Below are positions 10,757 through 28,204 of a DNA stretch of 64,000 nt, one piece after another. Both the position numbers and the translations under genes were made by a program. The notes below the pieces were generated by a model, which was given only the letters and a program-made list of their open reading frames with translations, did no database searches and was not told the origin of the DNA. The stretch is taken from assembly GCF_020215705.1 (NCBI RefSeq), contig NZ_JAIWNB010000020.1, positions 124,001 through 188,000 of the forward strand, written 5' to 3'. Source of the DNA: Nonomuraea aurantiaca (lineage in GTDB: Bacteria; Actinomycetota; Actinomycetes; Streptosporangiales; Streptosporangiaceae). Position 1 is the stretch's first letter. Every line of letters begins with the position of its first letter.

Positions 10757-10794
10757 CGAAAGGCCCCGGGTCCATGTGGACCCGGGGCCTTTCG
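10757..10794 (-). terminator. Attenuator hairpin in the aroF leader
   Basis: An almost loop-less 18-bp perfect stem runs from CGAAAGGCCCCGGGTCCA (10757-10774) to its complement (10777-10794). It lies between the leader peptide stop and the aroF ribosome-binding site, which is the position of an attenuator. The segment GGCGAAC (10800-10794 on the minus strand) abuts its 5' arm and is complementary to the distal arm of the upstream hairpin, giving a plausible antiterminator. The U tract after the stem is weak. Confidence 0.8.
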
Positions 10795-10806
10795 TTCGCC
10801 TGTCTG

Positions 10807-10875
10807 CTAGCGCAGCGTCAGGTGGCGAACGGACTCGGGTCCGTCGCCATACCAAAACACGAACGCTTTACGCAT
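10807..10875 (-). CDS. Aromatic leader peptide of aroF
   Basis: A 22-codon ORF from ATG 10875 to TAG 10807 on the minus strand, 93 bp upstream of aroF. Near its start it reads KAFVFWYG, so Phe, Phe, Trp and Tyr fall within five codons; all three products of the pathway are sampled. Directly after these codons the RNA can form a strong hairpin inside the leader (GGCGACGGAC with GTCCGTTCGCC, 10824-10849), then an antiterminator segment and the terminator at 10757-10794. There is no ribosome-binding site. A -10-like TACGAT at 10883-10888 lies 7 nt before the ATG, which would give a leaderless transcript starting at the start codon. The layout is that of a classical amino acid attenuator; the function is inferred. 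Confidence 0.8.
   Translation of the reverse strand: MRKAFVFWYGDGPESVRHLTLR
10824..10849 (-). promoter_or_regulatory. Pause hairpin (1:2) of the aroF attenuator
   Basis: Within the leader ORF, GGCGACGGAC and GTCCG-T-TCGCC pair over 10 bp with one bulged base around a 4-nt loop. It begins immediately after the Trp-Tyr codons, so a ribosome stalled there would mask the proximal arm. That would free the distal arm (GTTCGCC) to pair with GGCGAAC (10800-10794) and block the terminator. Pairings were read by eye. Confidence 0.65.
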
Positions 10876-10964
10876 AGTCGCCATCGTAGCGCACCGCACC
10901 CGCGCGCGAGGCAGGCAAGGGCCGATGGCAGGATGGCCCAAGACCACGGAAACCGGCGAGGGGA

Positions 10965-11567
10965 GTGTACGTGGAGGAATCGCGGCTGCCTCCGGGCCAG
11001 TACGTCCCGCGCGGCCGGCCGGTGATCCACTACGGCAGGGTGCCGCAGTTCCGGCCCGAAAGCTGGGACTTCCGCGTCTTCGGAGCCACCGCCTCCGGCG
11101 AGGAGCACCGCTTCACCTGGCCGGAGTTCGAGAGCCTGCCCCGCACCGGCGTCATCGCGGATTTCCACTGCGTCACCAAGTTCTCGATCATGGGCAACGA
11201 GTGGCGGGGGGTCAGCCCGGCGACGATCGTCGCGGCGGCCCCGCCCGATCCGGGCGTGCGGCACGTGATGATCTGGGCCGAGTACGGCTACAGCGCCAAT
11301 CTCCGGATGTCCGACTTCACCGCCCCGGACACGCTGTTCGCCATGGAGCTGGACGACAAGCCGATCAGCGCCGACCGGGGCTTCCCCGTACGCGCCGTCG
11401 TGCCCCACCTGTACGCGTGGAAGAGCGTCAAATGGGTGCGGGCCATCGAGTATCTCCTCGAAGATCGCCGAGGCTTCTGGGAGGAACGCGGCTACCACAA
11501 CGTGGCCGATCCCTGGCGCGAGCAACGCTACTCCTACCAGGAAGAACCCGGCGAGGGCCCTCCGTAG
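10965..11567 (+). CDS. Sulfite oxidase-like molybdopterin-dependent protein
   Basis: A 200-residue protein matching the single-domain molybdopterin-binding fold of the sulfite oxidase/YedY group. It contains FHCVTKFSIMGNEWRGV with the conserved Cys that ligates molybdenum, and GYPVR-like GFPVRAVVPHLYAWKSVKWV followed by a Trp/Tyr-rich C-terminus. There is no signal peptide or Tat motif and no haem domain, so it resembles the short cytoplasmic actinobacterial type. Substrate is unknown. GTG 10965 directly abuts GAGGGGA; GTG 10971 is better spaced and could be the true start. It lies downstream of, and divergent from, the aroF leader promoter, and 44 bp before the LytS-type kinase gene. Confidence 0.82.
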   Translation: MYVEESRLPPGQYVPRGRPVIHYGRVPQFRPESWDFRVFGATASGEEHRFTWPEFESLPRTGVIADFHCVTKFSIMGNEWRGVSPATIVAAAPPDPGVRHVMIWAEYGYSANLRMSDFTAPDTLFAMELDDKPISADRGFPVRAVVPHLYAWKSVKWVRAIEYLLEDRRGFWEERGYHNVADPWREQRYSYQEEPGEGPP

Positions 11568-26562: not shown

Positions 26563-28052
26563 GAAATATCCCGATACCTCAGCGGCGAGCACAGCTCCGC
26601 GAGCTCGCTCTCCTCGCCCAGCAAGATGGCCGCCGTGAGCGGCGCCAGCAACACCCCGCCCCGGTGATGCCCGGTGGCCAGCACCAGCCCCGGCGTGCCG
26701 CTGGGCCCGATGAGCGGGACGTTGTCCGGAGTGCCCGGCCGCAGCCCCGCCACCACGTCGGCGATCTCCAGCTCGGTGACGCCCGGCACCAGCTCGTGGG
26801 CGTCCCGCAGCAGCTCGTACAGTCCGCCCGCCGTCACCCTCGTGTCGAACCCCAGCTCCTCCTGCGTCGCCCCGACCACCAGCTCACCGTCACCCCTCGG
26901 CACGAGGTACACGGACTTCCCGTGCACCGTCCCGCGTACGCACCTGCCGAGCAGCGGCTGGGGGGAGCGCAGCCGCATGATCTGCCCCTTGACCGGCCGC
27001 ACCGGGACATCGGCCAGCCCGGCACTCCACGCCCCGGCCGCCAGCACGACCCGCTCGCCCCGGATCTCGGCGGGAATGTCCGCAAGCGGGGGGCCCTGGT
27101 CCGGAGCGGTCGTCCGGTCCTGGGTGATTGTCCCGTCCTGGGTGATTGTCCGGTCCGGGGTGACTGTCCGGTCCGGGGTGACTGTCTGAGGGACGGTTGT
27201 CCCGTCCGGGGTGGGTGTTTGGTCTGGGGTGGCTGTCTGGTTCGGGACGGCTGTCCCGTCCGGGGTGGGCGTCCGGTTCGGGGTGGGCGTCCGGTCCGAG
27301 GGTGCGAGGCGTACGCCCACGACCTGGTCGCCTTGGTCGCCGCCCCGGAGCAGTTCGCTGACGCGAGCCCGGATGATCGGGACGCCCAGCCGGTCGAGTG
27401 CGGTCAGGAGCGCGGCGGTGACGCGGCGCGGGTCCACCCAGGCGTCTCCCCGGGCCAGCAGCCCACCGCGTACGGAGGGTGCCAGCATGGGCTCCAGCCG
27501 GCGGCACTCGCGCCCGGTCAGCCGCTCGACCGGCAGCCCCAGCTTCTCCATGAACGCGGCCAGCTCACCGAGCGCCGCCAGATCGTCGGCCCCGAACGCC
27601 ACGGCCAGCGTCCCGTCGACCCGGAAGTCCAGCCCGGCCCGCGCGGCCTCGCTGAGCCCGCTCACGACCGCTGCGGACGCCCCGGCCTCATCAAGGCGGT
27701 TGGCGGGTTCCGGACCGGCATCGAGGCCGACATCGGAGGCGGCAGGTCCCGTACCGGCATCGAGGCCGCCCCCGCCAAGGCGGTTGGCGGCGGGTCTCGT
27801 ACCGGCATCGAGGCCGGCGTCAGCGGCGAGTTCGGTGGCGAAGGACGGCCAGCGGCGCAGTGCGGCGAGGCCCAGCCGGAGCAGCGGCTCCTCCGTGTAC
27901 GTGACCTCGCTCACCGGCGCCAGCATGCCCGCCGCCGCGTGCGAGGCCCCAGAGGCCGGAGCGGGGTCGACCACGGTGACCGGCCGTCCCGAGCGGGACA
28001 GGCGCCAGGCGATGGACAGCCCGACGATCCCGCCGCCTACGACGATGTCCAC
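26559..28052 (-). CDS. thiO: Glycine oxidase ThiO with repeat expansions
   Basis: A 497-residue FAD-dependent amine oxidase that makes dehydroglycine for thiazole synthesis. It has the N-terminal dinucleotide motif VDIVVGGGIVGLSIAWRLSRSG, ASGASHAAAGMLAPVSE, RGDAWVDPRRVTAALL, VRPVKGQIMRLRSP and the C-terminal GLRPGTPDNVPLIGPS plus ATGHHRGGVLLAP. The family is usually about 370-400 residues; the extra length is two repetitive inserts. One (residues about 85-125) is Ala/Gly/Pro-rich with LDAG units. The other (residues about 250-320) has TPD(R/G/Q)T-type units. The start is GTG 28052 with AAGGGAG upstream; an ATG at 28073 lies inside the TPP riboswitch. It is first in thiOSG. Confidence 0.9.
27095..27310. 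repeat. Degenerate 12-18 bp tandem repeat inside thiO (TPDRT units)
   Basis: About 14 imperfect units resembling GTCCGGTCCGGGGTG or GTCCCGTCCTGGGTG run through the middle of thiO. Several adjacent pairs are nearly identical, such as GGGTGACTGTCCGGTCCG twice near 27155-27190. On the coding strand they give DRTVTP, DGTITQ and NQTATP units. The insert falls between conserved FAD-fold segments. Confidence 0.8.
27694..27825. repeat. Second repeat in thiO, about 40-48 bp units
   Basis: The phrase ACCGGCATCGAGGCCG recurs at about 27710, 27752 and 27800, and CAAGGCGGTTGGCGG occurs twice. On the coding strand this gives LDAG and ANRL units near residues 85-125 of ThiO. It is a separate expansion from the TPDRT tract. 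Confidence 0.7.
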
Positions 28053-28061
28053 GTCCGCTCC

Positions 28062-28152
28062 CTTCGCCGGCATGATCCGGATCAGGTGTCTTGCGGTCGA
28101 AGGCCCGGTGCAGCCTTCCTCTCAGCCCGGTAACGGCCGGACTCCCGCGCGT
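28062..28152 (-). promoter_or_regulatory. TPP riboswitch (THI element) upstream of thiOSG
   Basis: On the minus strand the leader has the conserved THI-box elements in order: GCGCGGGAGTCC, then CCGGGCTGAGAGGAAGGCTGC (the CUGAGA core), and the 3' half ACCTGATCCGGATCATGCC followed by GGCGAAGGGA. Its 3' edge overlaps the ribosome-binding site AAGGGAG of thiO, which fits translational control by thiamin pyrophosphate. Boundaries are approximate. Confidence 0.93.
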
Positions 28153-28204
28153 CTTACGTCTCCACCCTACGGCCTCGGCGCGACGCCCAGGCACGGGCCC
28201 GGTT

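Follow-up and report, generated by a model that had tools for sequence, protein, structure and literature searches.

A conserved candidate attenuator with a mixed aromatic leader peptide upstream of the type I-beta DAHP synthase gene of Nonomuraea aurantiaca

Does the aroF gene of Nonomuraea aurantiaca lie behind a switch that reads the supply of aromatic amino acids? In the 64,000-nucleotide stretch analysed here (the window), the first-pass annotation had proposed a ribosome-mediated attenuator, with a Phe/Trp/Tyr leader peptide, ahead of a type I-beta DAHP synthase gene. This proposal immediately raises two questions. First, is the arrangement of a small ORF and hairpins upstream of aroF a property of the locus or an accident? 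Second, by which pairings could a ribosome on the leader decide the fate of the transcript? The identity of the gene, the conservation of the ORF, the terminator and the -10 hexamer, and the covarying alternative pairings all support the proposal, and we put at roughly 0.9 the probability that a ribosome-mediated transcription attenuator controls aroF. The anatomy, the conservation, the covariation and the dependence of the folding on ribosome position were computed here; the transcription start, the stalling, the termination and the identity of the amino acids sensed are inferred.

The aroF product scores 382.5 bits against TIGR01361 (cut-off 267.75), matches PF18152 and PF00793, and has the N-terminal ferredoxin-like domain that, together with a TIGR01361 score above the cut-off, defines type I-beta. 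Its best-scoring NCBIfam model is NF041229, at 600 bits under the cut-off of 700; this model is named for BagF/FevY, which we take to be antibiotic-cluster enzymes. The neighbours of aroF, thiI and a yiaA/B-domain gene, suggest a housekeeping setting. A type II DAHP synthase is also encoded in the genome (G000:C24). In the upstream sequence examined, no aromatic-codon cluster was found before the type II gene (best 1 in 5 codons) or before the chorismate-mutase-domain ORF of the genome (best 2 in 5). A single ORF at G000:C78:354788-355735 (L002, L278) contains a DAHP-synthase-like part (35% identity) followed by a CM_2 chorismate mutase match, the only one found in this genome, and is possibly a fusion of the two.

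The 22-codon ORF with consecutive F-V-F-W-Y was read directly from the sequence, and it is the only such ORF in the window. At least four aromatic codons in five occur in 3 of 860 short ORF entries (10-40 codons, ATG or GTG starts, both strands, each nested start counted separately), all three being the leader ORF with alternative starts. The TACGAT hexamer lies, as had been noted, 7 nt before the ATG, and this spacing is kept among relatives: 98 of 134 elements have a TAnnnT motif whose end lies 6-8 nt ahead of the leader start (exactly 7 nt in 66), compared with 0-4 of 134 at five upstream-shifted positions. An SD-like 4-mer precedes the leader in 3 of the 134 elements, and an SD-like motif lies next to the aroF start in 82 of 108. 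The fixed TAnnnT distance and the rarity of SD-like motifs fit the leaderless leader that had been suggested, and the position of the -10 hexamer would place the transcription start at, or 1-2 nt from, the leader ATG. Leaderless starts are reported for several S. lividans leader peptides in passages of PMC8079986. The features of the locus are collected in Table 1.

Table 1. Features of the aroF leader region, in window coordinates.
Feature	Position	Strand	Basis or remark
aroF, type I-beta DAHP synthase, 343 aa	9682..10713	minus	TIGR01361, PF18152, PF00793
Terminator hairpin, perfect 17-bp stem, loop ACAT, weak T-rich tail	10757..10794	minus	folding, covariation
Partner of A2, CGGGTCC, inside terminator 5' arm	10778..10784	minus	complementarity, covariation
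Partner of A1, GGCGAACG, between leader stop and terminator	10793..10800	minus	2 nt common with terminator
Leader peptide ORF MRKAFVFWYGDGPESVRHLTLR	10807..10875	minus	22 codons, ATG 10875, stop TAG 10807
Leader hairpin (1:2), GGCGAC.GGAC / GTCC.GTTCGCC	10824..10848	minus	folding; covariation weakest of four pairings
Antiterminator segment A1, CGTTCGCC	10824..10831	minus	complementary to linker
Antiterminator segment A2, GGACCCG	10836..10842	minus	complementary to terminator 5' arm
Regulatory codons F5-V6-F7-W8-Y9 (TTC GTG TTT TGG TAT)	10849..10863	minus	read from sequence
-10-like hexamer TACGAT	10883..10888	minus	ends 7 nt before leader ATG; predicts leaderless transcript
Molybdopterin-domain oxidoreductase gene, divergent from leader/aroF	10965-11567	plus	other flank of leader ORF

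Between the leader ATG and aroF, the RNA folds at -83.5 kcal/mol (z = -7.0), with none of 200 shuffles as good. Both hairpins of the first-pass annotation were recovered with small corrections. The leader hairpin, given there as 10824-10849, ends at 10848; the terminator at 10757-10794 has the coordinates and the stem as described, with 17 rather than 18 base pairs and an ACAT loop, and in the window a linker of 12 nt separates it from the leader stop. No Rfam family matches the leader at or above its gathering score. The best match below threshold, spanning the linker and the terminator, is to sodF_sRNA and reaches 30.7 bits (E = 0.003) where 46 are required. A known RNA family was rejected as the identity of the leader, no Rfam match on it exceeding any cut-off. 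The only Rfam match above the gathering score in the window is a TPP riboswitch at 28042-28158 on the minus strand.

A terminator hairpin stands between the ORF and the gene, with a tail that is T-rich across the element set and weak in the window: the T fraction in the 8 nt after the stem is 0.47, against 0.10 farther downstream and 0.16 upstream of the leader, and in Nonomuraea aurantiaca the stem is followed by GCGTTTCCAGGG, which holds no T run. This weak U-tract would suit a Rho-dependent attenuator, in which the hairpin alone does not terminate and stalling changes the access of Rho or NusG, and Rho-dependent leader control is reported in Mycobacterium tuberculosis (PMC12810186). Against such a mechanism speak the T-enriched tail and the stem itself, which is conserved, GC-rich and nearly perfect and has arms that covary across 24 clusters. 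We regard Rho dependence as improbable. A hairpin without a good U-run in this species could also point to translational control, either by leader stalling that alters folding near the aroF ribosome-binding site or by reinitiation coupling; control of initiation has been proposed for some actinobacterial RNA elements, the ileS T-boxes, according to a passage of PMC1262725. However, over 108 aroF elements the hairpin ends 17-106 nt (median 48) before the aroF start codon, the SD-like motif lies outside the hairpin in the 82 elements mentioned above, and the tail 3' of the stem is T-rich across the set. Translational control is therefore, in our judgement, a shade less probable still.

To what extent is the layout conserved? 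An automatic test asked for an ORF starting 90-260 nt upstream of the gene, with at least three F/W/Y in five codons, and a hairpin starting no more than 50 nt from its stop. Upstream of aroF it was passed by 59 of the 78 named actinobacterial orthologues whose upstream sequence was long enough, and by none of 390 dinucleotide shuffles; by 24 of 27 loci from a first search of relatives (0 of 135 shuffles); and by 45 of 66 loci from a class sample outside family f19 (0 of 330 shuffles), the locus sets overlapping in species. Within f19 the count was 1 of 20 (0 of 100 shuffles). The ORF part of the test alone was passed by 3, 2, 5 and 2 of these 390, 135, 330 and 100 shuffles, respectively. A chance or stray hairpin was rejected as an explanation, given the rarity of the ORF among the 860 short ORFs and the shuffle controls for the layout.

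Nineteen of the 78 named loci and 19 of the 20 f19 loci failed the automatic test, and by this measure the predicted leader is lineage-bound. The single f19 positive (L196) was judged a chance hit, and some misses (e.g. L103, L104, L125, L136, L168, L169) look like leaders with fewer aromatic residues or a weaker hairpin. In several f19 loci (L175, L181-L183, L185, L189-L191, L197, L199) the stretch just before aroF holds a conserved reading frame (...ETPGGPPAYAEDL...) that resembles the end of another gene, which would fit the absence of a leader there. The layout test covered loci with at least 200 nt upstream, leaving aside L064, L078, L008, L025, L031 and any such loci of the class sample, as well as L204-L206; L114, L118, L123 and the paralogues L201-L203, in which no start was recognised, stand outside the analysis of the relatives' leaders.

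A covariance model, R1, was built from 45 leaders and run on a class sample of 296 genomes. At 60 bits or more it gave 31 matches, all lying 18-105 nt upstream of aroF and taking in all 30 aroF-bearing genomes of the window's family, although training sequences came at least from G000 and G011, of this family, and from G035, of another, which match by construction. The next independent match in the window's own genome has E = 0.11.

The pairings themselves bear on the second question. The first-pass annotation had described a segment GGCGAAC complementary to the distal arm of the leader hairpin, and this is borne out, with GGCGAAC at 10794-10800 facing GTTCGCC. This 2:3 pairing, 8 bp as CGTTCGCC:GGCGAACG, exists and covaries; as the entire antiterminator it was rejected, because it shares just 2 nt with the terminator, a point absent from the first-pass annotation, and leaves 15 of the 17 terminator pairs free, so that on its own it would scarcely stop termination. 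It was kept as one half. The antiterminator must then also use the terminator 5' arm, and from the complementarities in Table 1 it is likely a composite, in which A1 pairs with the linker and A2 with the terminator 5' arm. In the window the composite duplex amounts to -31.3 kcal/mol.

Covariation was assessed by a swap test, in which the partners of a pairing are exchanged between sequence clusters and the double-centred duplex energies are compared with permutations. The main version used 134 elements (108 aroF and 26 chorismate mutase) in 24 clusters, with 8 draws. The terminator arms gave -5.1 kcal/mol (p 0.0002) and the leader distal part with the linker -4.1 kcal/mol (p = 0.0002 in 8 of 8 draws). 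The leader first arm and loop with the terminator 5' arm gave -1.3 kcal/mol (median p 0.003, range 0.0002-0.025), and the leader hairpin -1.4 kcal/mol (median p 0.009, range 0.0016-0.056). In these four pairings cognate partners bind more strongly than exchanged ones. None of the four control pairings was significant: the linker combined with the first arm or with the promoter, the distal part with the terminator arm, and the leader with the promoter. When aroF elements only were used, in 14 clusters, the leader:linker result was unchanged and the leader:terminator-arm result was marginal (median p 0.076); with single-linkage clusters, which lump 60 elements in one, the latter pairing was not significant (p = 0.42). 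The pairing analysis behind the composite duplex left out L030, L084 and L110, and the 14-cluster test additionally L062, L063 and L075. The 24-cluster test left out these six as well as L196, L255, L137, L167 and L172, together with elements with a hairpin score below 20, aroF elements with fewer than three aromatics in five codons, elements whose leader tail or linker is very short, and exact duplicates, 134 remaining.

An alignment of 45 leaders gives a closer view of the individual helices. It derives from 55 listed leaders (of 70 elements) with the ten most divergent left out, leans on the Nonomuraea layout, and its counts are of sequences, not of independent events. The A2:terminator-arm helix pairs in 91.7% of cells; at one position A-U occurs in 21 and G-C in 22 of the 45 sequences, and at another G-C in 21 and C-G in 13. 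The terminator position with the A-U/G-C exchange also changes in its pairing with the 3' arm (C-G 23, U-A 22), so that leader column 60 (A/G) varies together with terminator columns 134 (T/C) and 146 (A/G). Three positions changing together are as expected for the mutually exclusive pairs predicted here, and a single evolutionary event may account for the A/G covariation of A2. The A1:linker helix has two-sided changes in 7 of 8 pairs, yet only 63.8% of its cells are paired, in part because other families shift the helix by one base; the leader hairpin pairs in 73.9% of cells. Of five covariation measures, three exceed every one of the 500 shuffles for A1, A2 and the leader hairpin: the fraction of cells that pair, the cells changed on both sides, and the covariation score. 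The other two, which count the pairs changed on both sides and the types of pair, do not. The upstream regions of type I-beta aroF genes in relatives, where the first-pass annotation had suggested looking for its own refutation, thus hold both conserved aromatic codons and covarying stems: the small ORF recurs at the 59 of 78 loci, and the alternative pairings persist over the 24 clusters.

How could the ribosome select between these folds? We propose that the first ribosome would translate the leaderless peptide behind RNA polymerase. If charged tRNA-Phe, tRNA-Trp or tRNA-Tyr were scarce, it would stall at codons 5-9 and mask the transcript roughly as far as the leader hairpin begins. The free leader RNA could then pair with the nascent RNA, GGACCCG with CGGGTCC of the terminator 5' arm and A1 with its complement in the linker, and this composite antiterminator would hold the 5' arm during synthesis of the 3' arm, so that the polymerase would enter aroF. 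With aromatic amino acids plentiful, the ribosome would reach the stop and hide A1 and A2, and the 17-bp hairpin would end transcription. The leader thus probably turns DAHP synthase on when Phe, Trp and Tyr run short.

By computation, from covariation and folding, the antiterminator is mutually exclusive with the terminator and follows the position of the ribosome. The nascent RNA was folded as far as the terminator loop after removal of the stretch under the ribosome, whose front edge was assumed to lie 16 nt from the first P-site base. In the window, the leader:terminator-arm part has 8 pairs with the ribosome at Tyr 9 and 2 with the ribosome one codon further on, and no antiterminator forms at the stop. 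Over the 24 clusters, at least 8 antiterminator pairs form in 22 with the ribosome at the last aromatic codon and in none with the ribosome at the stop codon; the two parts have on average 9.8 and 6.1 pairs at the former position and none at the latter. This loss is partly trivial, since less RNA stays free as the ribosome advances. In the full-length window RNA the folding always prefers the terminator, and on this modelling a kinetic switch, of the kind that known attenuators use, would be required.

Which amino acids are sensed? The upstream ORF carries codons for the end products of the pathway, and F is present in 108 of 108 aroF leaders, Y in 107, W in 90 and all three in 89. In the window, folding allows both parts of the antiterminator wherever the A-site stands within codons 5-9; this and the residue counts speak for the first-pass view that one peptide would sense all three end products. 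It is also quite conceivable, though not what we favour, that only one of them (e.g. Phe) is sensed and the others are decoration: Trp is absent from 18 of the 108 aroF leaders, and the Phe-Tyr-Phe aroR leader of C. glutamicum responds to Phe limitation and not to Tyr, according to a passage of a review.

Might the ORF instead encode a functional small protein, with ordinary hairpins beside it? The aromatic core and the YG that follows it are indeed kept as amino acids among the relatives' leaders. However, Nonomuraea reads the CGCC arm as GTT CGC C and Nocardiopsis, in another frame, as GTC GCC, and the arm covaries with the linker, outside the ORF, so that the second half of the leader looks conserved as RNA and not as peptide. 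We consider a small-protein function very improbable indeed.

The codons of the leader also differ from those of the gene that it precedes. In 110 distinct aroF leaders, TTT is used 121 times against 89 for TTC, and TAT 102 times against 56 for TAC; in the first 330 codons of 80 aroF genes, the corresponding counts are 0 against 480 and 5 against 355. This preference for TTT and TAT may serve slow decoding, weak structure or a pause.

R1 also matches genomes of family f18, probably Streptomyces, none of which has an aroF match at E 1e-60 in the 296-genome sample. Of the 11 f18 matches fetched, nine lie before a chorismate mutase gene (R1 scores of 45-57 bits) and two before a thrS-like gene; the five chorismate mutases scanned, of which four come from f18 and one from f34, exceed the cut-off of NF005894. 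A protein search gave 29 f18 chorismate mutase loci, all with a leader by inspection, e.g. MLTHPTFLFTYGNRPTGCHGRAA, and Trp occurs in the aromatic core of two (L253, L255). The 26 chorismate mutase leaders in the swap test (25 from f18 and L256) all contain F and Y, and 3 contain W anywhere. Among 20 further chorismate mutase upstream regions from other families, an F/Y leader-like ORF is present in some f16, f17, f6, f34 and f43 genomes and absent from others. A Phe/Tyr leader ORF and a GC-rich hairpin upstream of AroQ chorismate mutase were thus observed at L207-L214, L217, L218 and L227-L256 (f18 and some others), and the literature matches listed hold no description of such a leader. SCO4762, considered as the Streptomyces chorismate mutase, proved to be the wrong gene, being named groEL1 in a passage of PMC4895711; no literature was found for SCO4784. 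A further group of R1 matches (L219-L226, also L215 and L216) consists of Thr-rich leaders with Thr-Thr-Thr, e.g. MKRAAITTTPDSVPAR, and a hairpin upstream of threonyl-tRNA synthetase, the downstream protein having been scanned for one of them (L221).

Since R1 matches before chorismate mutase and thrS genes too, it partly recognises a shared architecture. We lean, by a little, towards the view that one attenuator architecture, widespread among actinobacteria, serves several entry enzymes, the leader codons in each case being matched to the products of the enzyme under control, with a composite-antiterminator readout and TTT/TAT use as part of the sensor. If so, Phe/Trp/Tyr codons would go with DAHP synthase, Phe/Tyr codons, mostly without Trp, with chorismate mutase, whose products do not include Trp, and Thr codons with thrS; the first arm and loop of the leader hairpin would mimic the 3' arm of the terminator. 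The aroF leader itself, if the attenuator reading is true, would be a simple switch on the entry of carbon into the shikimate pathway, the source of aromatic precursors for many natural products, in many actinomycetes. It would also be a natural system in which to ask how several amino acids are integrated by a single leader, and why TTT and TAT, codons otherwise avoided, are chosen in leaders.

The first-pass annotation held that an attenuator for a type I-beta DAHP synthase with a mixed aromatic leader seems little described. The leader of C. glutamicum aroF makes it less novel than that. For the present family, the matches listed from the openly licensed literature on leader peptides of DAHP synthase and chorismate mutase genes, and on those of Streptomyces and Nonomuraea, hold no description of the aroF element. 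PMC2965389 and PMC4833913 gave no relevant passage on aro, DAHP or chorismate, and none of six terms looked for occurs in the transcriptome paper on Nonomuraea gerenzanensis. Among actinobacterial systems, passages of Seliverstov 2005 (PMC1262725) predict trp, trpS and leuS attenuators in Streptomyces and Corynebacterium, which resemble the aroF element in being actinobacterial and having GC-rich terminators. According to the same passages, the Actinobacteria that could be surveyed at the time showed no conserved RNA structures ahead of their phenylalanine and tyrosine operons. The parts of PMC8079986 concerned with S. lividans TK24 list eight leaders, whose dependence is on Leu, Trp, Ala, Ile, Met and Thr; no leader is described there ahead of a DAHP synthase gene, and the term chorismate mutase is absent from that paper; its leaderless leader peptides include thrL before thrS. 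The S. lividans leaders share with the aroF element a leaderless short ORF, a hairpin and a downstream gene, and thrS leaders elsewhere score with R1.

The aroF gene of C. glutamicum probably encodes a different, alpha-type DAHP synthase. The aroR leader and attenuator before it were reportedly described by Neshat et al. in 2014. A Phe-Tyr-Phe leader with attenuation before this gene is mentioned in passages of PMC11802643, PMC4046766 and PMC3890552. By these descriptions, aroR/aroF is the nearest published case: it too has an aromatic leader peptide and a transcription attenuator before a DAHP synthase gene in an actinobacterium, with Phe-Tyr-Phe and no Trp mentioned, the comparison being one of descriptions only.

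The classical models are the trpL and pheL attenuators of E. coli, in which leader codons for the pathway product are followed by a leader hairpin, an antiterminator and a terminator; their function is summarised in a passage of PMC11802643. The aroF element has the same product-matched codons and the same succession of structures, and we conclude that it is real and conserved and very probably a classical attenuator. Unlike the E. coli trp and phe attenuators, its leader is predicted to be leaderless and mixes Phe, Trp and Tyr codons, and its antiterminator would use the first arm and loop of the leader hairpin besides the second arm. The composite antiterminator and the mixed aromatic codons are thus its distinctive points.
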